Assembly (NCBI RefSeq): GCF_003115775.1
Contig: NZ_QEES01000002.1
Coordinates: forward strand, 124,001-188,000
Direction: 5' to 3'
Source of the DNA: Cellulomonas sp. WB94
GTDB lineage: Bacteria; Actinomycetota; Actinomycetes; Actinomycetales; Cellulomonadaceae
Length of the DNA stretch: 64,000 bases
The notes below the pieces were generated by a model. That model had not been told where the DNA came from and ran no database searches. It saw only the letters and a list, made by a program, of their open reading frames with translations. The translations under genes and the position numbers were made by a program. Within the stretch, counting starts at the first letter, position 1. The number at the start of each line of letters is the position of its first letter. Positions 46,146 through 60,113 of the stretch are shown here, one piece after another.

Positions 46146-47072
46146 CTATCGGGCCGACGAGAGCCAGTGGGCCGGCCGGGTCAACGGCGGATCGACCTGG
46201 GTGCGCGCGTCACCCTTCGCTGCGGCCAGCTGGAACTGCGTGAGGAACAGGCTCCCGGTGAGGTCGGCGCCCGAGAGGTCCGCGCCTCGCAGGTCGGCTC
46301 CGATGAGATCGGCAAGACGCAGGTCCGCGCCGCGCAGATCGGCGCCGATGAGGTAGGCGCCGCGCAGGTCTGCGCCGCGCAGGTCCGCTCCACGCAGCAT
46401 GGCCCCCATGAGATCAGCGCCCCGGTGCTGCGCCGCGGCGCGACCGGCCTCGGTGCGGACGATCTCGCTGACCGCCAGCAGAACGGTGTTCACCGTCGCC
46501 CGGTGCGCTGCCACATCCAGGCGATCGAGGTCCTGCGGCGACAGCCGGGTGAGGCGTTCGGTCTCGTCGAGCGCCTGCTGCGCTGCGGCCGCGAGTGGGG
46601 CAGCGGCCGGTCGCGCGAGCGCGTCGGTGAGGTACCACAGCAGCTCGTGGAGCTGCCGGACGACCGGGAACACCGCGAACATCGACGACGCAGTCTGCGG
46701 AGCCGCCCGCCAGTCGTGACCGCCGAAGGTCACCTGGGAGACCTTCTGCCCGGCGCCGAAGCAGTCGTAGGCCGTGCAGCCCGGGAACCCGCGCTCCCGC
46801 AGCCGGTCGTGGATCCCGCAGCGGAAGGCGGTCTGCAGGTGGGTGCACGGCTCCCCCGCAGGCTTCGTGATCGCGAAGTCGGCCGAGGCCGCGAACGGGA
46901 GCGCCACGCAGCACAGCGCGAAACAGTGTGCGCAGTCGGCGCGCAGCTCGGACGGGCCGACGGCCGGCACACGATGTGGCACGTCGCCTCCTGGTTTGAT
47001 CTCGCGGTGCTCGCGGTGCTCGCGGTGCTCGCGGCCCTGGTCCGACGCGACGTCGGACCGCGGCTCGGACAC
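46146..47072 (-). CDS. Pentapeptide-repeat protein with Cys-rich N-terminal region
   Basis: This 308-residue protein has a Cys-rich N-terminal region: CAHCFALCC, then CTHLQTAFRCGIHDRLRERG and GCTAYDCFG, eight or more Cys in all, which may bind metal or form disulfides. A helical middle follows. The C-terminal pentapeptide repeats (about residues 219-277, A-D/N-L-x-G units such as RGADLRGADLRGAYLIGADL) build a right-handed quadrilateral helix. Such repeats can mimic DNA (Qnr, MfpA) or act as scaffolds. GTG 47072 has GAGG upstream. The function is unknown. Confidence 0.85.
   Translation of the reverse strand: MSEPRSDVASDQGREHREHREHREIKPGGDVPHRVPAVGPSELRADCAHCFALCCVALPFAASADFAITKPAGEPCTHLQTAFRCGIHDRLRERGFPGCTAYDCFGAGQKVSQVTFGGHDWRAAPQTASSMFAVFPVVRQLHELLWYLTDALARPAAAPLAAAAQQALDETERLTRLSPQDLDRLDVAAHRATVNTVLLAVSEIVRTEAGRAAAQHRGADLMGAMLRGADLRGADLRGAYLIGADLRGADLRLADLIGADLRGADLSGADLTGSLFLTQFQLAAAKGDARTQVDPPLTRPAHWLSSAR
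47001..47034 (-). repeat. 9-bp tandem repeat in the pentapeptide gene
   Basis: CTCGCGGTG is repeated three times head to tail with a partial fourth copy, encoding H-R-E units near the N terminus. It is in-frame and copy number could vary without breaking the gene. Confidence 0.75.
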
Positions 47073-47103: not shown

Positions 47104-48597
47104 CTACAGGTCGTTGCCGGCGTACGAGAGGTTGAAGCTCTTGTTCGCCACGGGGAAGTCCGGGACGATCGTTCCGGTCAGCGCGACCGGCAGAGCGGGC
47201 CACGTCATGAACGACGGGTCGACGATCTTGAGCCGCGCCAGCGTGCCGTCCGCGGCGATCTCAACTCGGTGCGCGATCGTGCCGCGCCAGCCCTCGACGA
47301 GCCCGACCCCCGAGACCTGACCACCAGGGACGACCGACGCCCGGTCGCGGTGCGCAGTCCCGGTCCGCGCGTCGTGCAGCAGGAGGTCGAGCAGCGCGAT
47401 GCTGGCCCGCACCTCGCCCGCACGCACCAGGAACCGGGCCAGCACGTCGCCCTCGCTCCGCGTGACCGGCGTGACCTGCGTGGTAGCGACGTGGAACGGG
47501 TGGTCGCGACGGGCGTCGACGTCGACACCGCTGGCCCGGGCGACGTATCCCAAGGCACCGATCTGGCGGACCTGGTCCCCGCGGAGCACCGCGGTGCCAG
47601 TGAACCGGTCCCGGACGACGCTGTTGGCCAGCGCGAGGTCGACGATCTCCGCGACCTCGGCCGCGACCTCCGCCAGCTGGCCCGAGGTGGGCAGCTCGGC
47701 GACGCGTGCGCCGCCGGGCATGACCGCGCCCCGCAGCAGCCGGTGACCGGTGACGTCGGCGTTCAGTCGGAGCAGCCGCTCCCGGACCCGCAGCGCGTGC
47801 GCGTTGAGGATGCCGAAGCCGACGTCGTTGCACAGCGCACCGAGGTCGGCGACGTGGTTGTACAGCCGCTCGAGCTCGAGCAGGACCGCGCGCAGGAGTC
47901 CCGCCTCGGTGGGCACGTCCCAGCCGTAGGCATCCTCCACCGCGAGGCAGTAGGCCAGCGCGTGGCCGACGCTCGTATCTCCCGAGACCCGCTCAGCCAG
48001 CAGGAGCGCGTCCGACGGCGTGCGGCCCTCGGCGAGCTTCTCGATGCCCTTGTGCGTGAACCAGAGGCGGGCCTTGAGCTTGAGGATGGTCTCGCCGACG
48101 ACGGAGAACCTGAAGTGCCCGGGCTCGATGAGACCGGCGTGGATCGGGCCGACCGGGATCTCGTAGACCCCGGGACCCTGCACCGTCACGAACGGGTAGG
48201 CCTCGTCGACCGCGCCGAACTCGGGTGCGGGCCCCGCGTCGGACCGCATGGCGTACCACCCGACGGGCCAGTGCTGGTGACGCACGAGCCGGCGCGGCAG
48301 GGGGTGGCCGAGCGGCACGATGCCGTAGAGGTCACGCATCTCACGCTCGAACCGACCGGCAGGGAACGACAGCGCCGCGAGGGACGGCACCTCGGGTACC
48401 TCCCGATCCGTGCGCAGCACGAGCTCGACCCGGCGGTCCGGGTTGCCGGCCGTGAACAGGTACACGACGCGGAAGGCGTCCGGGTCCTCGTGGGCAGCCA
48501 CGAGCGCGAGCCGGTAGCCGTCGTCGAGCAGCGCGCCGACCTGGACGGCGAGCTCAGCGGCGCCGACCTCCTGGCGCCTGGACGTCGGGGCGTTCAC
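47104..48597 (-). CDS. Ehr complex large subunit, NuoC/NuoD-like (HycE/HyfG-like) without NiFe ligands
   Basis: This 497-residue fused NuoC-NuoD protein has an N-terminal 30-kDa domain with GRFEREMRDLYGIVPLGHP and a NuoD/[NiFe]-hydrogenase large-subunit core (GHFRFSVVGETILKLKARL, THKGIEKLAEG). At the positions that hold the CxxC of active hydrogenases it has Ser205-x-x-Thr208 (RVSGDTS). At the C-terminal DPCxxC position it has DPS-x-x-T (Ser462, Thr465). No hydrogenase activity is expected. It is the last gene of the operon; GTG 48597 overlaps the upstream stop. It is similar in place to Rv0087 (hycE). Confidence 0.9.
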   Translation of the reverse strand: MNAPTSRRQEVGAAELAVQVGALLDDGYRLALVAAHEDPDAFRVVYLFTAGNPDRRVELVLRTDREVPEVPSLAALSFPAGRFEREMRDLYGIVPLGHPLPRRLVRHQHWPVGWYAMRSDAGPAPEFGAVDEAYPFVTVQGPGVYEIPVGPIHAGLIEPGHFRFSVVGETILKLKARLWFTHKGIEKLAEGRTPSDALLLAERVSGDTSVGHALAYCLAVEDAYGWDVPTEAGLLRAVLLELERLYNHVADLGALCNDVGFGILNAHALRVRERLLRLNADVTGHRLLRGAVMPGGARVAELPTSGQLAEVAAEVAEIVDLALANSVVRDRFTGTAVLRGDQVRQIGALGYVARASGVDVDARRDHPFHVATTQVTPVTRSEGDVLARFLVRAGEVRASIALLDLLLHDARTGTAHRDRASVVPGGQVSGVGLVEGWRGTIAHRVEIAADGTLARLKIVDPSFMTWPALPVALTGTIVPDFPVANKSFNLSYAGNDL

Positions 48598-50180
48598 GGG
48601 GTCCCCGCGATCAGCGCGGCCGCGCGTAGCAGCTGGTCCAACGGCCACGCGACGACCCCGAGCGCGGCGAGCACCGCGAGCCCTGTCACGAGCGGAGCAA
48701 CCCCGCCGGCCGAGCGCACGGGCTGCATCGTCTGCGGGCGCACCGGCGTCATCGTCAGCACCGCGGAGACAGCCGCCGCGGTCGGCAGCGGCGCTGTGGC
48801 CGGCGGCGGCGCAGCACTCGGGGACGCCGCGAGGGCGGGAGGCCGTCCGAACAGCATCCCCGCACCGTGCGAGGCGATCGCCACGAAGACCACCAGGAGC
48901 AGCACGAGCGCCACGGCGACGGCCCAGCCCAGACCGGCGTCGGCCGCCGCCCGAGCCAGGGCGAGCTCGCTCACGAACAGGCTGAACGGCGGGAGCCCGA
49001 GCAGTGCCGCGAGCCCGAGCGCGAAGGTGCCGGCCAGGACCGGGCGGCGAGCCAGCAGGCCGCGCACGCCCGAGATCTGCGTCGTGCCCTCGAGGGCAAG
49101 GATCTGGCCGGAACCGCAGAACAGCACCGACTTGGCCAGGCCGTGGCCCAGGATGTGGAGCAGCAGAGCCGCGACGGCGAGCCGGGTGCCGACCGCCGCG
49201 CCGAGCACGACGAGCCCCATGTGCTCGATGCTCGAGTAGGCGAGCAGCCGCTTGTAGTCGCGCTGGGCGATGAGCATCGATGCGGCGAGCGCCAGCGAGG
49301 TGAGCGCCGCGACGAGCAGCAGGCCGCGCACGAAGCCAGGGTCGAGCGCCGCGACCGCGATCACGCGGTACCGCAGCAGCGCGTAGACAGCGACCGACAG
49401 CAGCACGCCGGACATGAGCGCGGACACCGGCGCGGGCGCCTGGCTGTGGGCGTCGGGCAGCCAGCTGTGCATCGGCACGAGCCCGGCCTTGGTGCCGAAG
49501 CCGAGCACGAGGAGCGCGAACGCGACCCGCATCACACCGGGGTCCAGCCGGTCCGCGTGCTCGAGGAGCACCGTCCAGTCGAGCGAGCCCTCCGACCCCA
49601 TGCCGGAGTGCTGCGAGGCGAAGTAGACGAGCACGGTCCCCAGGTAGGCCAGCGCGATGCCGACCGAGCAGATGATCACGTACTTCCAGGTGGCCTCGAC
49701 CGCCTTGCGACCGCCGCGGTGCCCGACGAGGAACGCCGTCACGATCGTCGTCGCCTCGATCGACGCCCACAGCACGCCGAGGTTGCCGGCGAGCACCGCG
49801 AGCACCATCGCCGCGAGGAACATCGGCACGAGGAGCCCGTAGCGCCCCGCGCCGCGCGCATCGGTGTGCCCGGCGGCGAGCTCCTGGTCGATGTAGCCGA
49901 CGCTCGACCAGGTGGCGATCACCGCGACGGCGCCGATGACGAGCAGCATGACCGCCGTGAGCGCGTCCGCCCGCAGCAGGTCGCCAGCGACGAGCACCGA
50001 GCCGTCCGCCGTCGCCACGGCTGCCAGCACGCCGCTCGCCAGGATGACCGCGGAGGCGGCGACGGCGGACCAGGCGACTGCCCGCCGCCAGCCGAGCAGC
50101 GCCGCGGCGCCTCCCGCGAGCAGCGGTGCGACCAGCGGCGCGAGCAGCACGGCGGTGCCGAGGCCGCCGATCGCGGTCAC
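48594..50180 (-). CDS. Ehr complex antiporter-like membrane subunit (HyfF/HycQ-like)
   Basis: This 528-residue polytopic NuoL/M/N-type proton-channel subunit has about 14 helices. FGTKAGLVPMHSWLPDAHSQAPAPVSALMSGVLLSVAVY and LLAYSSIEHMGLVVLG are the family hallmarks. It would translocate H+ or Na+ coupled to the redox module. GTG 50180 is chosen as the first start before LLAPLVAPLL; a weak AGGG precedes it. It sits between the HyfE-like gene (34 nt gap) and the large subunit (4-bp overlap). Confidence 0.9.
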   Translation of the reverse strand: MTAIGGLGTAVLLAPLVAPLLAGGAAALLGWRRAVAWSAVAASAVILASGVLAAVATADGSVLVAGDLLRADALTAVMLLVIGAVAVIATWSSVGYIDQELAAGHTDARGAGRYGLLVPMFLAAMVLAVLAGNLGVLWASIEATTIVTAFLVGHRGGRKAVEATWKYVIICSVGIALAYLGTVLVYFASQHSGMGSEGSLDWTVLLEHADRLDPGVMRVAFALLVLGFGTKAGLVPMHSWLPDAHSQAPAPVSALMSGVLLSVAVYALLRYRVIAVAALDPGFVRGLLLVAALTSLALAASMLIAQRDYKRLLAYSSIEHMGLVVLGAAVGTRLAVAALLLHILGHGLAKSVLFCGSGQILALEGTTQISGVRGLLARRPVLAGTFALGLAALLGLPPFSLFVSELALARAAADAGLGWAVAVALVLLLVVFVAIASHGAGMLFGRPPALAASPSAAPPPATAPLPTAAAVSAVLTMTPVRPQTMQPVRSAGGVAPLVTGLAVLAALGVVAWPLDQLLRAAALIAGTP

Positions 50181-50214
50181 AGTGACCCTGCTGATGCGTG
50201 CATGGGTGTCCTCA

Positions 50215-50874
50215 TCAGTCGCGGAGCTCGGAGAGCTCGTCCATGTCGGTCCGCCCGAAGGTCAGCCGCATCCGGGCGGCGAGCACCTGGAGCACGAGCA
50301 CCAGGAGCAGCAGGTCGAGCGAGCCCCCGAGCTCGACCACGAGCGGGACGCCTGACGTCGCGAGGAAGGCGGTGGCGGCGATGCCGTTGTCGAGCAGCAG
50401 GAAGCCGACGACCTGCGACAGCGCGTGGCGGCGGGTCACCAGGACGAAGAAGCCGAGGAACACCACGGCGAGCCCGACGGGCAGCGCGCGTGTCGTCGCG
50501 GACGGCGCGAGCGCCACGAGCGGCCGACTCACGGCGTACGCGACCAGCGTGAGCAGTGCGGCGGCGAGCAGCGACGACGTCACGTTCACGAGCGGCTCGG
50601 CCTCCCGGACGTCCCCGCTGTCGCGCAGGACCCGGTGCAGCACGCCCGGCAGCACGACGGCCTTGAGGACGAGCACCCCGACCGCGACGAGGTAGAGCTC
50701 GACGCTGTGCTCGCGCACCCCGAGGAGCACGGCGAGCGCGGCGAGCAGCACTCCCTGCACGACCAGCAGCCGCACGATCGCGGCGAGTTCTCGGCGCCAC
50801 AGCATCAGGACCCCGGAGAGCAGCAGGCCGCCGCACACCAGGTCGAGGATCTGCACGAACATGACGTCACTCAT
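50215..50874 (-). CDS. Ehr complex small membrane subunit (HyfE/HycP-like)
   Basis: This 219-residue NuoK/HyfE-like protein has about six to seven helices, for example ILDLVCGGLLLSGVLML at the N terminus, LYLVAVGVLVLKAVVLPGVL and VVGFLLLDNGIAATAFL. ATG 50874 is 16 nt from the HycD-like stop. It is a hydrophobic scaffold subunit that joins the antiporter module to the rest of the complex, as in Mtb Rv0085. Confidence 0.88.
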   Translation of the reverse strand: MSDVMFVQILDLVCGGLLLSGVLMLWRRELAAIVRLLVVQGVLLAALAVLLGVREHSVELYLVAVGVLVLKAVVLPGVLHRVLRDSGDVREAEPLVNVTSSLLAAALLTLVAYAVSRPLVALAPSATTRALPVGLAVVFLGFFVLVTRRHALSQVVGFLLLDNGIAATAFLATSGVPLVVELGGSLDLLLLVLVLQVLAARMRLTFGRTDMDELSELRD

Positions 50875-50890
50875 CTCGGCCCACCGCCTC

Positions 50891-51838
50891 TCATGCCAGG
50901 AAGAAGGACGCGGAGACGGCGAGCAGCCCGAACAGGAACGACCCGGCGAGCAGCTCGGGCACCCGGAAGAGGCGCCACTTGGCGATGAAGACCTCGAAGG
51001 TCGCCAGCACCGCGCCGAGCACGCCGACCTTGAGCGCGAAGACGGCCGTCGCCCCCAGCAGCGCGAGCGGCGCCGACGACGTCGCGACCCCCCACGGCAC
51101 GAAGAGGTTGACGCTCAGGCCGAGGAGCACGGTCAGGCGCATCGCCGACGCGAGCTCGACGACGGCCAGGTCGCGCCCGGCGTACTCGAGGATCATCGCC
51201 TCGTGGATCATCGTCAGCTCGAGGTGGGTCGCCGGGTTGTCGACCGGGAGCCGTCCGGCCTCGGCGATGACCACGACCGCGAACGCCACCGCCGCCAGCA
51301 ACGTGGCCGGTGACAGGACCTGTGCGGGCGCGGCCAGGGTCCCCGCCACGATGTCCGCCAGGTTCGACGACCCGACCCGGGCCGACAGGGCGAAGCCCGC
51401 GAGCAGGATCGTGGGCTCGGCCAGCGCCGCGATCGTCACCTCGCGGCTCGCCCCCATGCCGCCGAACGCGGTCCCGGTGTCGAGACCGGCGAGCGTGAGT
51501 GCGACGGTGCCGAGCAGCAGGAGCGAGACCACCGCGAACAGGTCCGCGACGCCGTCGAGCGGGGACGCGGTCGAGACGAACGGCGCGACGGCGGCGATGA
51601 CCAGGGTCGAGGCGAACACCACGAGCGGCCCGGACGTGTAGATCCAGCTGGTGCCCTCGGGCCGGACCGCCTCCTTCTTCAGGAGCTTGCGCAGGTCGCG
51701 CCACGGCTGGCCGATGCCGGCGCCCGCGCGACCCTCGAGCACCGCCCGCACCTGCCGCATGAGCCCGACCAGCAGCGGTGCCCCGCCCACGACGACGACG
51801 ACCTGGACGAGCACGCCCACCACGCCGACGGCGGTCAT
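50891..51838 (-). CDS. Ehr complex quinone/ion-channel subunit (HycD/NuoH-like)
   Basis: This 315-residue NuoH-like membrane protein has about eight helices. GIGQPWRDLRKLLKKEAVRPEG, FVSTASPL and the charged loop VIAEAGRLPVDNPATHLELTMIHEAMILEYAGRDLA are hallmark HycD/NuoH motifs. The ETMIHEA-type Glu residues are intact. ATG 51838 overlaps the HyfB-like stop in ATGA. It links the soluble redox module to the membrane arm. Confidence 0.93.
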   Translation of the reverse strand: MTAVGVVGVLVQVVVVVGGAPLLVGLMRQVRAVLEGRAGAGIGQPWRDLRKLLKKEAVRPEGTSWIYTSGPLVVFASTLVIAAVAPFVSTASPLDGVADLFAVVSLLLLGTVALTLAGLDTGTAFGGMGASREVTIAALAEPTILLAGFALSARVGSSNLADIVAGTLAAPAQVLSPATLLAAVAFAVVVIAEAGRLPVDNPATHLELTMIHEAMILEYAGRDLAVVELASAMRLTVLLGLSVNLFVPWGVATSSAPLALLGATAVFALKVGVLGAVLATFEVFIAKWRLFRVPELLAGSFLFGLLAVSASFFLA

Positions 51839-53979
51839 GACGTGATCCCGACGACGACGAGGACCACGAGCAGCCCGATGAACCCGTACGCCAGGTAGCG
51901 GTGCACGCTGCCGTTGGCGATCCCCCGCGACCACTGGCCCCATCGGCGGACCGCGGCGAGGAGCGGCGGGTACAGCCGAGCCTCGACCCGGTCGGGGACG
52001 CGTTGGCGGTAGCTGATGCTCGCGATGAGGAGCTCCGACTCGGCGAAGGGCGTGATGTCGACGTCTTTCTCCGGCCTGAGCACGTCCTCGAACACCCGGG
52101 TCAGCGGCTCGGCGAAGGACGTCGCCGTGTACTCCATCCGCGGGCCGAGGCGCGTGCTGCCGCCGCCCCAGACAGGCGTCGCCCGACGCGGCGCTCGCTG
52201 GGTCACGCGGCGCACGAGCGCCGCCGCGCCGAGGCCCGCGACGAGCAGCCCGACGATGATCAGCAGCGGCGACATGGAGCCGGCGATGCCCGCCAGGCGC
52301 AGCGACACGTCACTGCCGGCGAGCGGCGCACCGTCCCGCACCGACGGCAGGACGTCCAGCAGCCGGCCGAGCGGCGCCGCGGCGACGGCCGGAGCCACGG
52401 CGAGCGCCGTGCACGCCACCGCGGCGAGGCCCATGCCGACCCGCATGCTCAGCGGTCCCTCGGTCGCACCGGTCGCCGCGGCGGACCGTGGCCGGGCCAG
52501 GAAGCCGACACCGAACGCCTTGACGAACGTCGCCACACCGAGTCCGAACGTCAGGGCGACCACCGCCACCGCGAGCGGCATGCTGATCGCGACCACGACC
52601 GAGGGTCCCGTCGCGCCGGTCATGCTGTGGATGAGTCCCTGGAGCAGCAGCCACTCCGAGACGAAGCCGTTCCCCGCCGGCAACCCGGCCGCACCCAGCG
52701 CGCCGACGGCGAACAGCGCCGTCGTGACCGGCATCCGCGACACGAGCCCGCCGAGGCGGTCGAGGTCCCGCAGCCCGGTCGAGCGCAGCACGGACCCGGC
52801 GCCGAAGAACAGCAGCGCCTTGAACGCCGCGTGGTTGACCGCGTGCAGCACCGCGGCGGCCAGGAGCAGCCCCGCGAGGACCCGGTTCCCCTCGACCGCG
52901 AACACGCCGGCGGCGCCGATGCCCACGAGCATCAGGCCGACGTTCTCGGTCGTCGAGTACGCGAGGAGCCGCTTGAGGTCAGCGGCGACGCTGGCCTGCA
53001 GCACGCCGTACAGCGCGGAGACGGCGCCGACCGCGAGGACCATGAGCCACCACCAGCCGGCTCCCCCGCCGAGCAGGTCGAACCCGACGCGGATGATCCC
53101 GTACAACCCGAGGGTGACCATGGCCGCGGACATCAGCGCCGACACGTGACTGGGTGCCTCGGGGTGCGCGCGCGGCAGCCAGACGTGCAGCGGCACCATG
53201 CCCGCCTTGGAGCCGAATCCCAGGAAGACCAGCACGAAGACGCAGGAGGCGGTGGCTGGGGACAGCCCGGCCGAGCCGGCGCGCATCGCGGCGAAGGACT
53301 CGCCCCCGGCGCCGGCGGCCAGCACGACGAGACCGAGCATGATCGCGACGAGCCCGGCGTGCGTCATGCCCGCGTACCAGAGGCCGGCGTCGCGCACCGA
53401 TCGGCGCAGCCGGTGCTCGGCGAGGACGAGAACCAGCGAGGTGAGCGCCATGAGCTCCCACAGGACCAGCAACGTGCTGACGCTCGCCGCCGCCGGGACG
53501 AGCAGCATGGCGGCGGCGAACAGCGGGAGCACCGCCTGGACCGTCCTGGAGGCGGCCGCGGTGGCCGGACCCGACGGGTCGTCGTGCGCCTCGTCGTGCG
53601 CCTCGGTGCCGTCGTGCGCGGCCGCCGGGTCGTGGACCTGTGCGGCGTCGTCGGTCGCGTGCGCGCCGCCGGGGCTCGTGTAGCCGACGGCGTAGATGCC
53701 GGCCGCGATCGCCACGGCGCCGATGAGCAGAAGGAAGGCTCCGGACAGCGCGTCGACGGCGAACGTCGTCTCGGCCAGCGGGAGCAGGTGCGCGGCCGTC
53801 AACGACCAGGTCTGACCGCCGAGCGCGCCGACCCCCGCGAGAACCCCGCCGATGCCGACGACCGTGGTCGCCGCGCCCGCGGCGACCGGCCGGGTGCGCG
53901 CGGGCGCCGAGCCGCCGGCCACGGCGCCCACGAGCGCTGCGGCGGCGACCACGGCGAGCCCGACGCTGATGAGGTTCAT
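51835..53979 (-). CDS. Ehr complex antiporter-like subunit (HyfB/MrpA-like) with a His/Asp-rich insertion
   Basis: This 714-residue NuoL-like subunit has about 15 helices. The core motifs are present: LLVLWELMALTSL (membrane Glu), FGSKAGMVPLHVWLPRAHPEAPSHVSALMSAAMV and FKALLFFGAG. Residues about 104-140 form a low-complexity loop rich in His, Asp and Ala (AHATDDAAQVHDPAAAHDG ...) that lies between the second and third helix groups and is not part of the family core. ATG 53979 overlaps the FeS-subunit stop in ATGA. Confidence 0.92.
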   Translation of the reverse strand: MNLISVGLAVVAAAALVGAVAGGSAPARTRPVAAGAATTVVGIGGVLAGVGALGGQTWSLTAAHLLPLAETTFAVDALSGAFLLLIGAVAIAAGIYAVGYTSPGGAHATDDAAQVHDPAAAHDGTEAHDEAHDDPSGPATAAASRTVQAVLPLFAAAMLLVPAAASVSTLLVLWELMALTSLVLVLAEHRLRRSVRDAGLWYAGMTHAGLVAIMLGLVVLAAGAGGESFAAMRAGSAGLSPATASCVFVLVFLGFGSKAGMVPLHVWLPRAHPEAPSHVSALMSAAMVTLGLYGIIRVGFDLLGGGAGWWWLMVLAVGAVSALYGVLQASVAADLKRLLAYSTTENVGLMLVGIGAAGVFAVEGNRVLAGLLLAAAVLHAVNHAAFKALLFFGAGSVLRSTGLRDLDRLGGLVSRMPVTTALFAVGALGAAGLPAGNGFVSEWLLLQGLIHSMTGATGPSVVVAISMPLAVAVVALTFGLGVATFVKAFGVGFLARPRSAAATGATEGPLSMRVGMGLAAVACTALAVAPAVAAAPLGRLLDVLPSVRDGAPLAGSDVSLRLAGIAGSMSPLLIIVGLLVAGLGAAALVRRVTQRAPRRATPVWGGGSTRLGPRMEYTATSFAEPLTRVFEDVLRPEKDVDITPFAESELLIASISYRQRVPDRVEARLYPPLLAAVRRWGQWSRGIANGSVHRYLAYGFIGLLVVLVVVGITS

Positions 53980-54473
53980 CGGCCGGTCAGCCCCCGCAGC
54001 GCCGCGATGAGCGCCTCGGGCGTGGGCGGGCAGCCGGGCACCTCGACGTCGACGGGCACGATGTCGCCGACGGCGCCCTCGACGCCATGGCCCCCCGCGA
54101 ACACACCGCAGTTCATGGCGCAGTCACCGACCGCGACGACACGCTTCGGGTTCGGGGTCGCGTCGAACACCGCGCGCAGCGGGTCGGCCATGTTGCGCGT
54201 CACCGGGCCGGTCACCAGGAGCGCGTCGGCGTGGCGAGGGGACGCGACGAGCCGCAGGCCGTAGCGCTCCGCGTCGTACACCGGACCGAACGCTGAGCCG
54301 ATCTCCAGCTCGCACCCGTTGCACGAGCCCGCGTCGATGTGACGCAGCTGGACGGAGCCCGCGAGAGGTCCGGCCGCAGCGGACGCGGCACCGGCTGCGT
54401 CCTCGACCGCAGGACGCGGCAGCTCTGGCTCGGCGACGCGCCCGGTGCGGAGGATCTTGCGCAGCACGCTCAT
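53976..54473 (-). CDS. Ehr complex FeS small subunit (NuoB/HyfI-like)
   Basis: This 165-residue NuoB-like protein has four cysteines placed to hold a [4Fe-4S] cluster: Cys51 and Cys54 (GSCNGCELE), Cys118 (VGDCAMN) and Cys148 (EVPGCPP). Only the catalytic NiFe side is lost in the large subunit; this cluster is intact, so electron transfer through it is possible. An N-terminal extension (residues 1-40) is Pro/Ala-rich. ATG 54473 overlaps the ArsR stop by one base (TGATG). Confidence 0.93.
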   Translation of the reverse strand: MSVLRKILRTGRVAEPELPRPAVEDAAGAASAAAGPLAGSVQLRHIDAGSCNGCELEIGSAFGPVYDAERYGLRLVASPRHADALLVTGPVTRNMADPLRAVFDATPNPKRVVAVGDCAMNCGVFAGGHGVEGAVGDIVPVDVEVPGCPPTPEALIAALRGLTGR

Positions 54474-54829
54474 CAGGAGGACGCGCCCGTCGGCTGACCG
54501 GACGTCTCGACGACCTCGTCGCTGAGCAGCTCGAGCTGGTCGGACAACAGCTTGGTCCGGATGCGGCGGGCCACGGCCAGCAGCTCGGCGATCTCGGGGT
54601 CGGTCACGGCGTACAGGACGGCGGACCCGTCCCGTCGCGTGGCCACCAGGCCGGAAGCGCGCAGCACACCGAGCTGCTGCGACAGGTTGGACGCCTCGAC
54701 GTCGAGCTCGGCCAACAGCTCGCCGACCGAGTGCTCGCGGAGGCAGAGCTTCTCGAGGATGCGGATCCGCAAGGGGTGACCGAGGGTCTTGAAGAGCTCG
54801 GCCTTCAGCTGATGGACGGGAGTCGTCAT
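54473..54829 (-). CDS. ArsR-family regulator of the Ehr operon (Rv0081-like)
   Basis: This 118-residue winged-helix protein has LFKTLGHPLRIRILEKLCLREHSVGELLAELDVEASNLSQQLGVLRASGLV with a recognition helix in ASNLSQQL and a wing ATRRDGSAVLYAV. One Cys (Cys29) is visible, but no metal-site pair. It is the first gene of the operon. A perfect palindrome (54884-54899) overlies its promoter, consistent with autoregulation. Position and type match Rv0081 in Mtb, a hypoxia-linked regulator. Confidence 0.9.
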   Translation of the reverse strand: MTTPVHQLKAELFKTLGHPLRIRILEKLCLREHSVGELLAELDVEASNLSQQLGVLRASGLVATRRDGSAVLYAVTDPEIAELLAVARRIRTKLLSDQLELLSDEVVETSGQPTGASS

Positions 54830-54862: not shown

Positions 54863-54899
54863 ATCATGCCACAGCGTGACGAGTTGCAGAACTCTGCAA
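54863..54899 (-). promoter_or_regulatory. Ehr operon promoter with 7-2-7 palindromic operator
   Basis: TTGCAGA-AC-TCTGCAA (54884-54899) is a perfect inverted repeat. On the minus strand CATGAT (54863-54868) is a candidate -10, and TTCTGC (54886-54891) inside the palindrome is at the right distance (17 bp) to be the -35. A bound repressor would block polymerase. Confidence 0.65.
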
Positions 54900-56309: not shown

Positions 56310-56942
56310 CTACTGGGGACCGACGGGAAGCACGGTCCGCTGGTGCGTGGAGTTGATGACCACGGCAGACGACGCGTACCAGGCCAGCAGCGCGGTGACG
56401 ATCCCCAGCACGCCACCGACACGCGTGAACGCGACCGTCCCGGTGTAGTCACCGGCGGCGAGGGCGAAGAACGTCACCGTGAGGAAGACGAAGACGAGGA
56501 ACACCGCGACGCTCGTCCGGCGTGCCGCGATCGTCATGTAGAGCGTGAAGATCCCCCAGGCGAGCAGGAAGACGCCCACGCCCTTGCCCTTGTCCGAGCC
56601 GGCGCCGGACAGGTCGGTGAACCGGGCGAGGAACCAGAAGGACAGCCAGAAAGCCCCGTAGGAGCAGAACGCCGTGGCGCCGAACGTGTTGCGGTTCGCG
56701 AACTCCCAGATCCCCGCGGCGAACTGCGCGAGGCCGCCGTAGAACAGCGCCAGGCCGAAGACGACCGGCTCGACCGTCACCGGAAGCAGACCGGCATTGA
56801 CGAAGCTGAGGACGAACGTCGTCAGCGCGAAGGCGGCGAGGCCGAGAGCACCGGGATCTGCGGGTGGAGCGGTCGGTCGGACGACGGCGTGCTTCGCAGC
56901 GGGCGAGATGGCATCGACGTCCTGAACGGTGCTGTTCATCAT
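56310..56942 (-). CDS. Acetate uptake transporter (GPR1/FUN34/YaaH/SatP family)
   Basis: This 210-residue protein has six hydrophobic helices. DPGALGLAAFALTTFVLSFVNAG replaces the canonical NPAPLGL signature, in which D-P-G-A-L-G-L is recognisable. GGLAQFAAGIWEFANRNTFGATAFCSYGAFWLSF is the typical core. The protein imports acetate/succinate or exports acids with H+. ATG 56942 has a GGGGGTT site upstream. A palindromic operator lies about 45 bp further upstream (56986-57003). Confidence 0.93.
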   Translation of the reverse strand: MMNSTVQDVDAISPAAKHAVVRPTAPPADPGALGLAAFALTTFVLSFVNAGLLPVTVEPVVFGLALFYGGLAQFAAGIWEFANRNTFGATAFCSYGAFWLSFWFLARFTDLSGAGSDKGKGVGVFLLAWGIFTLYMTIAARRTSVAVFLVFVFLTVTFFALAAGDYTGTVAFTRVGGVLGIVTALLAWYASSAVVINSTHQRTVLPVGPQ

Positions 56943-57821: not shown

Positions 57822-60113
57822 TCAGTGGGCGGGTACGAGGCTGAACGCGCCCTCTTCTTCTTGGGCGTTGTGCAGGCGCAGGACCGCGTAGAGCCCGTAC
57901 AGCAGGCGCCTGAGCTCGACGACGTCCTCCGGCTGGACCGTGTCGTTGTCGACGTCGCGGAGCAGCCGACGCAGCCGGTTGACCTGGTGCTCGATCTCCG
58001 CGTGGGTCCGGCTCAGCGACGCGGTCGCGTCCGAGCCGCCGAGCGCGCGGGCGACGAGCGGAACGAGCAACGCCTCATCGGCACGCTCGTGCGGGATGAG
58101 CTCCCGCTCGAGCCGGTCGAGCAGCGCGTGCGCCGGGACGAGGTCGCTGTCCCGGGTCGAGAGCGCGTCGGCCACGCCGCGGATCTGCTCGACGACGGCA
58201 TGCATCGCATCGTGCTCGGTTCGCAGGACGTGCGCGGTGGCGATGTCGGACGGCGTCATCGCGATCGTGTGGACCGCGCCCGGGAGCACCGCGCGCAGGG
58301 CGATCCCCATCGCCAGCACGTCGATGGCCTCCTGCAGGACCGCGCCGGCCGCGGGCGGCAGCAGCCCGACTGCGGCCGCGACCATGGCTGCGAGCGACAG
58401 TCCCATGCCGACGACGACCGCCTGCATCGCGATCCGCCTGGACCGGCGGGCGATCAGGATCGCGTCGGCGAGGGCGTCGATGCGGTCGACGGTCAGGACC
58501 ACGTCGGCCGCCTCCGACGACGCCGTCGCACCGCGCGCGGCCAGAGCCACCCCGACCCCGGCAGCGGCAAGCGCCGGGGCGTCGTTCACGCCGTCGCCGA
58601 CCATGATCGTCGCGGCGTGCGCACCCTCGGTCCGGATGGCGGCGAGCTTGTCGGCCGGGTCGCAGTCGGCCAGCACGGTGTCGACCCCGACGATCCGACC
58701 CACGGTGTCCGCGATGTCGGCCCGGTCGCCCGTGACCAGGACCACGCGGCTGACACCGACCTCGCGCAGGGCACGGACCGTCCGCGGCGCGTCGGGCCGG
58801 ATCGGGTCCTCGAGCAGGAAGGCGCCCACTGGCGCACCGTCGACCGCGATGAACACGGTGAGCGAGCCGTCGAGGTCCGCGCGCCGGCGCACCTGGCGCA
58901 CCCACGCGGCGGGAGCGTCGCCGACGATCCACACAGCCTTGCCGAGCCGCACCTCATGACCGCCGACCCGGCCCCGCAGGCCGTATCCGTGCTCTTCCTG
59001 GACGTCCTGGGGCATCTCGAGGGCGAGCTCGCGGCGGGTTGCTGCGGTCACGATCGAGCTGGCCAGGACGTGCGGCGAGACCTGGTCGAGCGAGGCGGCC
59101 AGGCGCAGCAGCTCGTCGGCGTCCACGTGGTCGCTCGCGGTGACCACGTCGGCGAGCGCGGGTTGGCCCTGGGTCAGCGTGCCCGTCTTGTCGAACAGCA
59201 TCACGCGACCCGCGGCCAGGCGCTCGAGCGCGCCACCGCCCTTGATGACCACCCCGATGTGAGCCGCGCGGGACAGCCCCGACATGATGGCGATGGGCGC
59301 CGCGAGCAGCAACGGGCAGGGCGTCGCCACCACCAGCACAGCGACCGCGCGCACCGGGTCCGCACTCAGCGCCCACGCGGCGCCGGCCAGCAGCAGGGTG
59401 AGCGGGACGAACACGACAGCGATGCGGTCGGCCGCGCGCACGAACGGCGCCGAGGACGCCTGAGCCTGCTCCACGAGCCGCACCACGCCCGCGTAGGTGG
59501 ACTCCGCCGCGACCGCAGTCGCCATGAGGTCGAGCGGGGGGCCTGCGTTGACGACACCGCTGCGCACCACGTCGCCCGCGGGCCGCTCGACCGGCAGCGA
59601 CTCGCCCGTCAGCACCGCCTCGTCCAGGACGGCGCCCGACATGAGCCGGCCGTCGACCGGGACGACCTCCCCCGTGCCCACCAGGAGCAGGTCGCCCCGG
59701 GCGACCTCATCCACCGGCACGTCGACGACGCAACCGGCGACACGACGACGGGCCGTCCGAGGGGCCCGCTCGACCAGCAGGCTCAGCTCGCGGCGGGCCC
59801 GCGCCGACGCGTGCGCGTCGAGCAGCTGACCCGTGCCCAGCATGACCGTGATCATGGCGCCCGCGAACGACTCGTTGACCCAGAGGGCACCGGCCAGCGC
59901 GAGCAGCGCGATGACGTCGACGCTCGGTTGACGGCGGCGCACGGCGCTGACGGTCCACGCGACCGAGAACACCAGTCCGAGCACGGTGCCGCCGACCCAC
60001 GCAGCGTCCGCCACGGTGGTCACGTGCGCCAGCCAGGCAGCCCCACCGCCCGCGAGCAGCACGGTCGACGCGACGAACAGCAGCAGCTCGACCCGATCAC
60101 GCCACCACGTCAT
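57822..60113 (-). CDS. P1B-5-type heavy-metal ATPase fused to a C-terminal hemerythrin domain
   Basis: This 763-residue P-type ATPase has the membrane-metal motif TPCP (264-267), the phosphorylation DKTGTLT (Asp308), TGES at 169-172 and the hinge GDGVNDAP (507-514). The TM6 signature QEAID (594-598) with TPCP defines the P1B-5 group, whose known members transport Ni2+ and Fe2+. Residues about 628-763 form a hemerythrin-like four-helix domain, with His634, His675, His704/His709 and His748 followed by acidic residues, which can bind a di-iron centre and sense oxygen or iron. ATG 60113 begins MTWWRDR. No N-terminal HMA domain is present. Confidence 0.93.
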   Translation of the reverse strand: MTWWRDRVELLLFVASTVLLAGGGAAWLAHVTTVADAAWVGGTVLGLVFSVAWTVSAVRRRQPSVDVIALLALAGALWVNESFAGAMITVMLGTGQLLDAHASARARRELSLLVERAPRTARRRVAGCVVDVPVDEVARGDLLLVGTGEVVPVDGRLMSGAVLDEAVLTGESLPVERPAGDVVRSGVVNAGPPLDLMATAVAAESTYAGVVRLVEQAQASSAPFVRAADRIAVVFVPLTLLLAGAAWALSADPVRAVAVLVVATPCPLLLAAPIAIMSGLSRAAHIGVVIKGGGALERLAAGRVMLFDKTGTLTQGQPALADVVTASDHVDADELLRLAASLDQVSPHVLASSIVTAATRRELALEMPQDVQEEHGYGLRGRVGGHEVRLGKAVWIVGDAPAAWVRQVRRRADLDGSLTVFIAVDGAPVGAFLLEDPIRPDAPRTVRALREVGVSRVVLVTGDRADIADTVGRIVGVDTVLADCDPADKLAAIRTEGAHAATIMVGDGVNDAPALAAAGVGVALAARGATASSEAADVVLTVDRIDALADAILIARRSRRIAMQAVVVGMGLSLAAMVAAAVGLLPPAAGAVLQEAIDVLAMGIALRAVLPGAVHTIAMTPSDIATAHVLRTEHDAMHAVVEQIRGVADALSTRDSDLVPAHALLDRLERELIPHERADEALLVPLVARALGGSDATASLSRTHAEIEHQVNRLRRLLRDVDNDTVQPEDVVELRRLLYGLYAVLRLHNAQEEEGAFSLVPAH

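Follow-up and report, generated by a model that had tools for sequence, protein, structure and literature searches.

An energy-converting hydrogenase-related operon without a NiFe site in Cellulomonas sp. WB94, and relatives that have lost the cluster cysteines of the small subunit

We analyzed a 64,000-nucleotide stretch of the genome of Cellulomonas sp. WB94 (contig NZ_QEES01000002.1, positions 124,001 to 188,000; hereinafter, the window) that contains a seven-gene operon assigned, in an earlier note made from the sequence alone, to the energy-converting hydrogenase-related (Ehr) family. The operon fills positions 47104-54829 of the window on the minus strand, and all seven genes are present, of the kinds and at the coordinates given in that note. 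In the order of transcription, they encode an Rv0081-type ArsR/SmtB regulator of 118 amino acids (aa; arsR, 54473-54829); a NuoB/HycG-like small subunit of 165 aa (53976-54473; PF01058) with C51, C54, C118 and C148 for one [4Fe-4S] cluster; a HyfB-like antiporter subunit of 714 aa (51835-53979; PF00361, with PRK06521 below the cut-off); a HycD/NuoH-like subunit of 315 aa (50891-51838; PF00146); a HyfE-like subunit of 219 aa (50215-50874, with an alternative start at 50862; PRK11492 below the cut-off and no Pfam match); a HyfF-like antiporter subunit of 528 aa that starts with GTG (48594-50180; PF00361, with PRK06458 below the cut-off); and a NuoC/D-HycE-like large subunit of 497 aa, also with a GTG start (47104-48597; PF00329, PF00346 and PF00374). 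All Pfam matches of the operon proteins, including HTH_5 for ArsR, exceed the gathering scores, and the NCBIfam matches name the same kinds of proteins, mostly below the curated cut-offs, with ArsR passing NF033788. The genes are tightly packed, as previously described: ArsR and NuoB overlap by 1 nucleotide (nt), NuoB and HyfB, HyfB and HycD, and HyfF and HycE overlap by 4 nt each, and the gaps between HycD and HyfE and between HyfE and HyfF are 16 nt and 34 nt, respectively.

The order ArsR-NuoB-HyfB-HycD-HyfE-HyfF-HycE was found in 24 of the 101 loci listed, the window included, and because of this recurrence it cannot be attributed to chance; the count omits L075, which lies on the same contig as L044, and many of the other loci either are too short to show the order or carry NuoB or ArsR at a different position. 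For loci of low G+C content, plain lists of open reading frames (ORFs) were used in place of gene calls. An alternative order, HyfB...HycE-NuoB, is found in Nitrospira, Acidobacteria and others. The mycobacterial hyc locus, Rv0081-Rv0087, shares all seven genes and their order with the window operon (gene table in PMC6901956; mycobacterial loci L072 and L073), as the earlier note had stated, and the best match of the window ArsR in the PDB is Rv0081 itself (6jmi, E 3.7e-34). This likeness refers to gene order and the ArsR sequence, and the window copy belongs to another subclade, apart from most mycobacterial copies; the copy from Ca. M. methanotrophicum (L063) falls near it. The mycobacterial locus has been treated as a putative hydrogenase (PMC2799521, PMC6901956), and Rv0082-Rv0087 have already been listed as horizontally transferred (PMC3087520).

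The large subunit has lost the NiFe site. The first former NiFe motif, E202-S209 (ERVSGDTS; 47971-47994, minus strand, located by alignment to HycE and relatives), reads RVSGDT where E. coli HycE (7z0s) has RVCGIC, and the second, which together with the C-terminus spans S487-L497 (47107-47139, minus strand, located by alignment to relatives), reads SFNLSYAGNDL in place of the SMDPCYSCTDR of L040, a relative with all four cysteines. None of the four NiFe cysteines is left, in agreement with the degeneracy claimed originally. The window ORF stops at the residue aligned with the end of the DPCYSCTDR motif of L040, the latter protein running on, so that there is no C-terminal extension. In hydrogenases, the extension that follows the second motif is cleaved off during maturation. 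In the tree, the Ehr clade comprises 94 rows with Shimodaira-Hasegawa-like approximate likelihood ratio test (SH-aLRT) support of 99, and the rows with NiFe cysteines fall outside (a quick tree search without bootstrap). The family assignment is thereby upheld, and the sequence comparison shows the window locus to be a complete Ehr operon, with six predicted structural subunits, an Rv0081-type ArsR and no NiFe site.

The predicted pocket at the former NiFe position is not decaying. The signature SGD...NKSFNxSYxGNDL is conserved in nearly all relatives read, and S205-G206-D207, N485-N489, S491, Y492 and G494-L497 are invariant in the window protein and 10 homologues (41-67% identity). Across 87 aligned rows, some of which carry NiFe cysteines, S205 is retained in 92%, G206 in 99%, D207 in 93%, S491 in 98%, Y492 in 95%, G494 in 94% and D496 in 99%. 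An AlphaFold model of the large subunit (single chain, 36 sequences) has a mean pLDDT of 84.5 and a pTM of 0.88, and the nearest solved chain, both in fold and in sequence, is HycE (7z0s_E, TM 0.86). Further pocket types exist: five large subunits of the Ehr clade (L058-L062) contain neither the NiFe cysteines nor SGD/SYxGND, and that of L223 terminates in SYSAFDR.

The membrane arm is conserved as well, and the conserved charged residues of the antiporter-like subunits (PF00361 twice) are in place, as the earlier note had it. Among the rows not known to be poor in cluster cysteines (Cys-poor; see below), HyfB E175, K258, H383, K387 and E442 are conserved in 99-100%, HyfF E142, K166, K231, H346 and K350 in 98-100%, and HycD E141, R196, E207, E213, E218 and E282 in all 77.

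The only known redox site of the module is the cluster of the small subunit. The window NuoB has all four cysteines with the hydrogenase-like CxxC spacing (CNGC), among solved structures it is closest to MbhJ and HycG, and it aligns with MbhJ without gaps. In relatives, the cluster positions vary: among 88 NuoB sequences (from 104 records, 16 of which showed none, and with L075 repeating L044), they read CCCC in 73, TCDD in 6, CCPS in 3, CCCS in 2, and DCDD, ACAS and PCCC in 1 each, with one sequence cut off, so that 8 of the 88 retain a single cluster cysteine. The positions replaced in the Cys-poor relatives correspond to the window codons of C51 (54321-54323), C118 (54120-54122) and C148 (54030-54032), all on the minus strand. 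Four sequences from Cryobacterium and their near-identical relatives (L084 and L090; L180 and L181) have three cysteines with serine at the fourth position, possibly an intermediate or an altered cluster.

Altogether, 17 loci have lost three or four of the four cysteines: 10 belong to the same phylum as L123 (Candidatus Daviesbacteria, Patescibacteria group) and five to the order of L057, and the remaining two are L137 and L092. In 13 of 379 genomes of the L123 phylum, a match was found, and 11 of these regions were fetched, the others being L123 itself and a contig-end fragment; nine of the 11 are Ehr loci, each with none or one cluster cysteine (five with none), while the other two, with ERICGIC and DPCISC, are true hydrogenases and have all four. 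All six subunits were detected in eight of the nine Ehr loci; in the ninth, L230, HyfE was not detected, and an ORF of suitable length lies at the expected position. In the order of L057, six of 19 genomes have a Cys-poor NuoB (S-T-N-A-C / GDD / GDPP) that is 75-99% identical to L057, in the sixth of which (G463) only the start of the operon is visible, and four complete Cys-poor operons come from this order; three further Ehr-like copies from the same order retain four (L161) or three (L162, L172) cysteines, and the complex-I-type NuoB of the order reads CC..C..C in 15 of 16 cases, the sixteenth missing the N-terminal part.

Two side observations concern the Cys-poor loci. Just upstream of the Cys-poor NuoB, L224 (9837-10427, minus strand) and L228 (9978-10613, minus strand) encode proteins of 196 and 211 aa with Cys/Asp and HxxC motifs that we take to be reminiscent of beta-carbonic anhydrases; neither protein has a Pfam match up to E 10, and that of L224 has no believable match in the PDB. 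Genes for ATP synthase alpha/beta subunits (PF00006) are located 1.6 to 9.2 kb from the Cys-poor module in L123 (16241-20690) and L228 (11279-15209).

The pocket and pump residues are nearly all kept in the Cys-poor complexes. In 15 such complexes, the large subunits of which are 32-40% identical to that of the window, E158 and the pocket residues G206, D207, S491, Y492 and D496 are present in all 15 and S205 and G494 in 14 each. The same holds for the membrane arm: HyfB E175, K258, H383, K387 and E442, HyfF E142, E162, K166, K231, H346 and K350, and HycD R132, E141, R196, E207, E213 and E282 are found in 15 of 15, HyfF H238 in 14, and the changes in HycD affect K51 in three complexes, K270 in two and E218 in one. 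The flanks of the lost cysteines are kept in the Cys-poor NuoB: G49, S50, N52, E55 and E57, G116, A119 and G123, and P146, G147, P149 and P150 are all found in 14 or more of the 15 complexes. The ratios of nonsynonymous to synonymous substitution rates (dN/dS) for the Cys-poor NuoB in four pairs are in the range of 0.048 to 0.129, the lowest among the six subunits in every pair, although these are rough values with dS of about 1 or more. Judging by these ratios, the Cys-poor small subunit is under purifying selection. Parsimony places two changes in cysteine content on the first tree and three on the second, and the better-supported losses are those in a clade of 16 rows (SH-aLRT 90; one row unread) and in L092, inside the actinobacteria, where its Cryobacterium kin retain three cysteines. 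Thus, the only known redox site can be lost and is dispensable in some Ehr lineages. No report of Ehr small subunits without the cluster cysteines was found in the open-licence literature, including the accessible parts of PMC7304191.

The module was detected in six of the 61 genomes of the family sample, in one of these as a fragment, in none of the three other genomes of the genus, and, at E 1e-60, 21 of the 396 genomes in the phylum sample match, some of them with NiFe cysteines. A scan of the contigs of GTDB species yielded at least 580 relatives, of which 80 loci were retained, and a search of 72,556 plasmid records at E 1e-40 gave 70 matches, not all of which need be Ehr. In the trees, the window copy pairs with L201, located on a mobilisable Rhodococcus plasmid, the closest among the relatives listed (SH-aLRT 100), whereas the copies from its own family (G013, G047 and G053) are nearer to the mycobacterial copies than the window copy is; on this tree evidence, we conclude that the operon was acquired horizontally. 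In L201, where tblastn finds no ArsR, the module is followed by IS110 and integrases; the copy on a Methylocalor plasmid sits between transposases, and that on a Paraburkholderia plasmid has ordinary neighbors.

The comparison of gene neighborhoods suggested in the earlier note bore out the recurrence of the seven-gene order and revealed no steady electron partner. In the actinobacterial loci, we observed no steady neighbor family outside the module, and no electron-donor or electron-input subunit was seen with it, including in the plasmid copies beside transposases or integrases. A conserved neighbor as the electron partner was considered and rejected for these loci; the flanks common to L044, L047 and L048 belong to close kin within the window's family. 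In other phyla, two-component genes are common near the module, at varying places. Within the window operon, the Pfam matches of the seven genes include neither a second FeS protein nor a DabA-type family, and formate dehydrogenase (FDH), HycB and HycF are absent from the seven genes and the six neighbors tested; the four PF00384 matches in the genome are all more than 240 kb away. The module travels alone, with no gene for an electron donor seen beside it.

A gene for a SulP-type anion transporter (PF00916) directly precedes HyfB on the same strand in five loci, four from Methylococcales and one from Terriglobia, with gaps of -4 to 342 nt (a 4-nt overlap in L107). The loci with an adjacent SulP gene are L107, L108, L115, L140, L135 and the gammaproteobacterial L133, in which it is on the opposite strand; in L126, the SulP gene is some kb from the module, and the Methylocalor plasmid copy has none before HyfB. 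These SulP genes and the ATP synthase genes described above are weak hints at an anion or ion-gradient physiology. Near the window operon itself, the gene for a pentapeptide-repeat protein with a Cys-rich N-terminal half (46146-47072) starts 31 nt past the operon, in the same orientation, and may be transcribed together with it; an acetate uptake transporter family gene is located at 56310-56942, and a heavy-metal P-type ATPase that carries a hemerythrin domain at its C-terminus is encoded 3 kb away, at 57822-60113.

As anticipated, the operon has its own ArsR, which probably controls it through a candidate operator, the palindrome TTGCAGAACTCTGCAA (TTGCN8GCAA) at 54884-54899, centered 63 nt upstream of the arsR start. 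This is the sole match of the motif in the 64-kb window, yet 13 of 100 shuffled sequences also contain one, so that the window palindrome alone means little. Among the 32 matches in 1.72 Mb (the window and the fetched records), 14 precede an arsR start by no more than 200 nt, with the proviso that these loci include close kin and that the ArsR in question is not always the one next to the module. The stricter form TTGCNNANNTNNGCAA occurs in three places genome-wide compared to two for the reversed control and hence defines no regulon beyond this operon. The motif is absent from the ten Rv0081 site sequences listed in the available part of PMC4757040, and literature searches returned no report of this palindrome for Rv0081. 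Sensing through cysteines was rejected for this ArsR: it contains one cysteine, which none of the other rows in the 36-row alignment shares.

The genome (3.87 Mb in 7 contigs) also encodes a separate large subunit of complex I, about 0.65 Mb from the operon. An intact NiFe large subunit (RICGIC...DPCISC), which, if adjacent, could have substituted for the degenerate one, is encoded about 282 kb away, at ~452.8-457.8 kb of the same contig (L152 in G000:C2), in an operon that also includes a small subunit, a gamma-type subunit, a maturation protease and a HypC-like protein and is sulfhydrogenase-like below the curated cut-offs. Because of this distance and its own small subunit and protease, we do not regard it as a replacement. 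A search of the genome for HypD (PF01924) gave no match, despite this intact operon. In G047, an operon with proteins that begin like those of L152 adjoins the Ehr module on the opposite strand.

What, then, does the module do? Because the pocket and the ion path are conserved while the redox site varies, we regard as the likeliest reading, at just under even odds, that the module is a gradient-coupled, non-redox machine with a core event other than electron transfer. The six proteins would form a complex-I-like assembly in which the HycE-like subunit, NuoB and HycD surround a pocket where the NiFe site used to be; movements in this pocket would pass via HycD to the antiporter-like HyfF and HyfB, the presumed carriers of H+ or Na+. 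Less surely, the driving event may be that a small molecule or ion is bound, protonated or converted in the SGD/SYxGND pocket. This event would be coupled to an ion gradient, most likely as a gradient-run reaction or as ion-for-ion exchange, and the [4Fe-4S] cluster of the window NuoB could be structural, regulatory (for example, an O2 or redox gate) or left over. A precedent for the principle is the DAB2 complex of Halothiobacillus, in which DabB, a NuoL-like (PF00361) subunit comparable to those in the window, is part of a non-redox, CO2-hydrating complex driven by the proton motive force (PMC13144422); the window operon differs in having no DabA and a different soluble arm.

Several observations weigh against a non-redox machine. 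The pocket signature is not universal, given the five Ehr-clade rows without SGD/SYxGND (L058-L062), and the pocket segments of the structural model (130-181 and 491-497) are of low confidence, so that the pocket geometry is tentative. The Cys-poor complexes may have taken on another function: 15 of the 17 loci belong to one clade, L230 is a long branch with an uncertain position, L092 is a single metagenome contig, and three of the 17 loci come from metagenome assemblies. The T/C/D/D residues at the cluster positions could bind another metal. Finally, the window NuoB and 73 of the 88 sequences keep all four cysteines, so that the cluster is under selection there.

This last point favors the usual view of Ehr, also that of the earlier note, namely, a redox-driven ion pump in which a soluble donor, such as ferredoxin or, as for other Ehr, formate dehydrogenase, reduces the NuoB cluster, an acceptor in the pocket is reduced and ions are pumped. 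Kinship to formate hydrogenlyase, MBH and complex I points in the same direction, and an FDH-Ehr has been proposed (PMC6349859). The antiporter-like arm of this model stands; the redox part appears doubtful in that the module contains no ferredoxin-like or dehydrogenase subunit and has no steady neighbor, and the pocket and pump residues are retained in the 17 relatives that have one cluster cysteine or none. We consider the redox pump a serious rival, somewhat less probable than the non-redox machine.

Comparison with complex I, with which the window complex has the fold and subunits in common, raises the possibility of a quinone-linked complex with the pocket as the quinone site. However, at the positions of the quinone residues H38 and Y87 of Nqo4 (for their roles, see PMC7684303), the window protein has I157 and G206, and the tandem cysteines of complex-I NuoB are absent from the window NuoB. 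Moreover, E158 aligns with MbhL E21, a key proton-reduction residue (PMC7684303). A quinone link thus seems improbable. Still slightly less probable is an enzyme like MBS of Pyrococcus furiosus, in which the NuoB cluster itself would reduce polysulfide or another small substrate in the pocket vacated by the NiFe site. MBS indeed offers a precedent for loss of the NiFe site with retention of an ion-pumping arm, and the window ArsR matches the sulfur sensor BigR, below the cut-off. However, MBS has kept two NiFe cysteines and has a NuoB cluster loop shorter by three residues (PMC7684303), whereas the window complex has no NiFe cysteine and a loop that is not shortened; the lone cysteine of ArsR is not shared, and the cluster is lost in relatives. 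A functional hydrogenase or formate hydrogenlyase, in line with the annotation of the mycobacterial locus, is almost certainly ruled out at the level of sequence and was rejected on the missing NiFe ligands, notwithstanding the sequence similarity to HycE and HyfB-F and the HycG-like NuoB, given also that, compared with the E. coli formate hydrogenlyase (7z0s), the window complex lacks the C-terminal extension, FDH and HycB/HycF and has two antiporter-like subunits.

Ehr is a known family. Complexes from Nitrospira, Geobacter, members of the candidate phyla radiation and others (PMC6349859, PMC10284858, PMC12342949, PMC8691401, PMC7304191) similarly combine a group-4-like large subunit without NiFe ligands with antiporter-like subunits, and the one in Nitrospira differs from the window operon in that NuoB comes last rather than first after ArsR. 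Their function is described as unknown or guessed (PMC6349859, PMC10284858, PMC12342949, PMC7304191), and, specifically in Nitrospira, as unknown (PMC10284858, PMC12342949). To this picture, the window operon adds a lone mobile module, a recurring palindrome and the Cys-poor relatives.

The interest of the operon lies in the dispensability of the redox site in some lineages, seen family-wide. A serious, if on balance doubtful, possibility is that Ehr complexes are not respiratory redox enzymes and form a non-redox branch of their own within the complex I superfamily, in which the old hydrogen-making pocket would have been rebuilt as a conserved polar site that couples ion binding or a non-redox reaction to transport via the two antiporter-like subunits, and the FeS cluster would be dispensable; if so, the mycobacterial hyc locus would encode such a machine, too. 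The Cys-poor relatives turn the question of which donor and which acceptor into a yes-or-no question, namely, whether redox chemistry is needed. If it is, the pump model would be restored; if it is not, complex I would gain a non-redox cousin that is present in many phyla and on plasmids.

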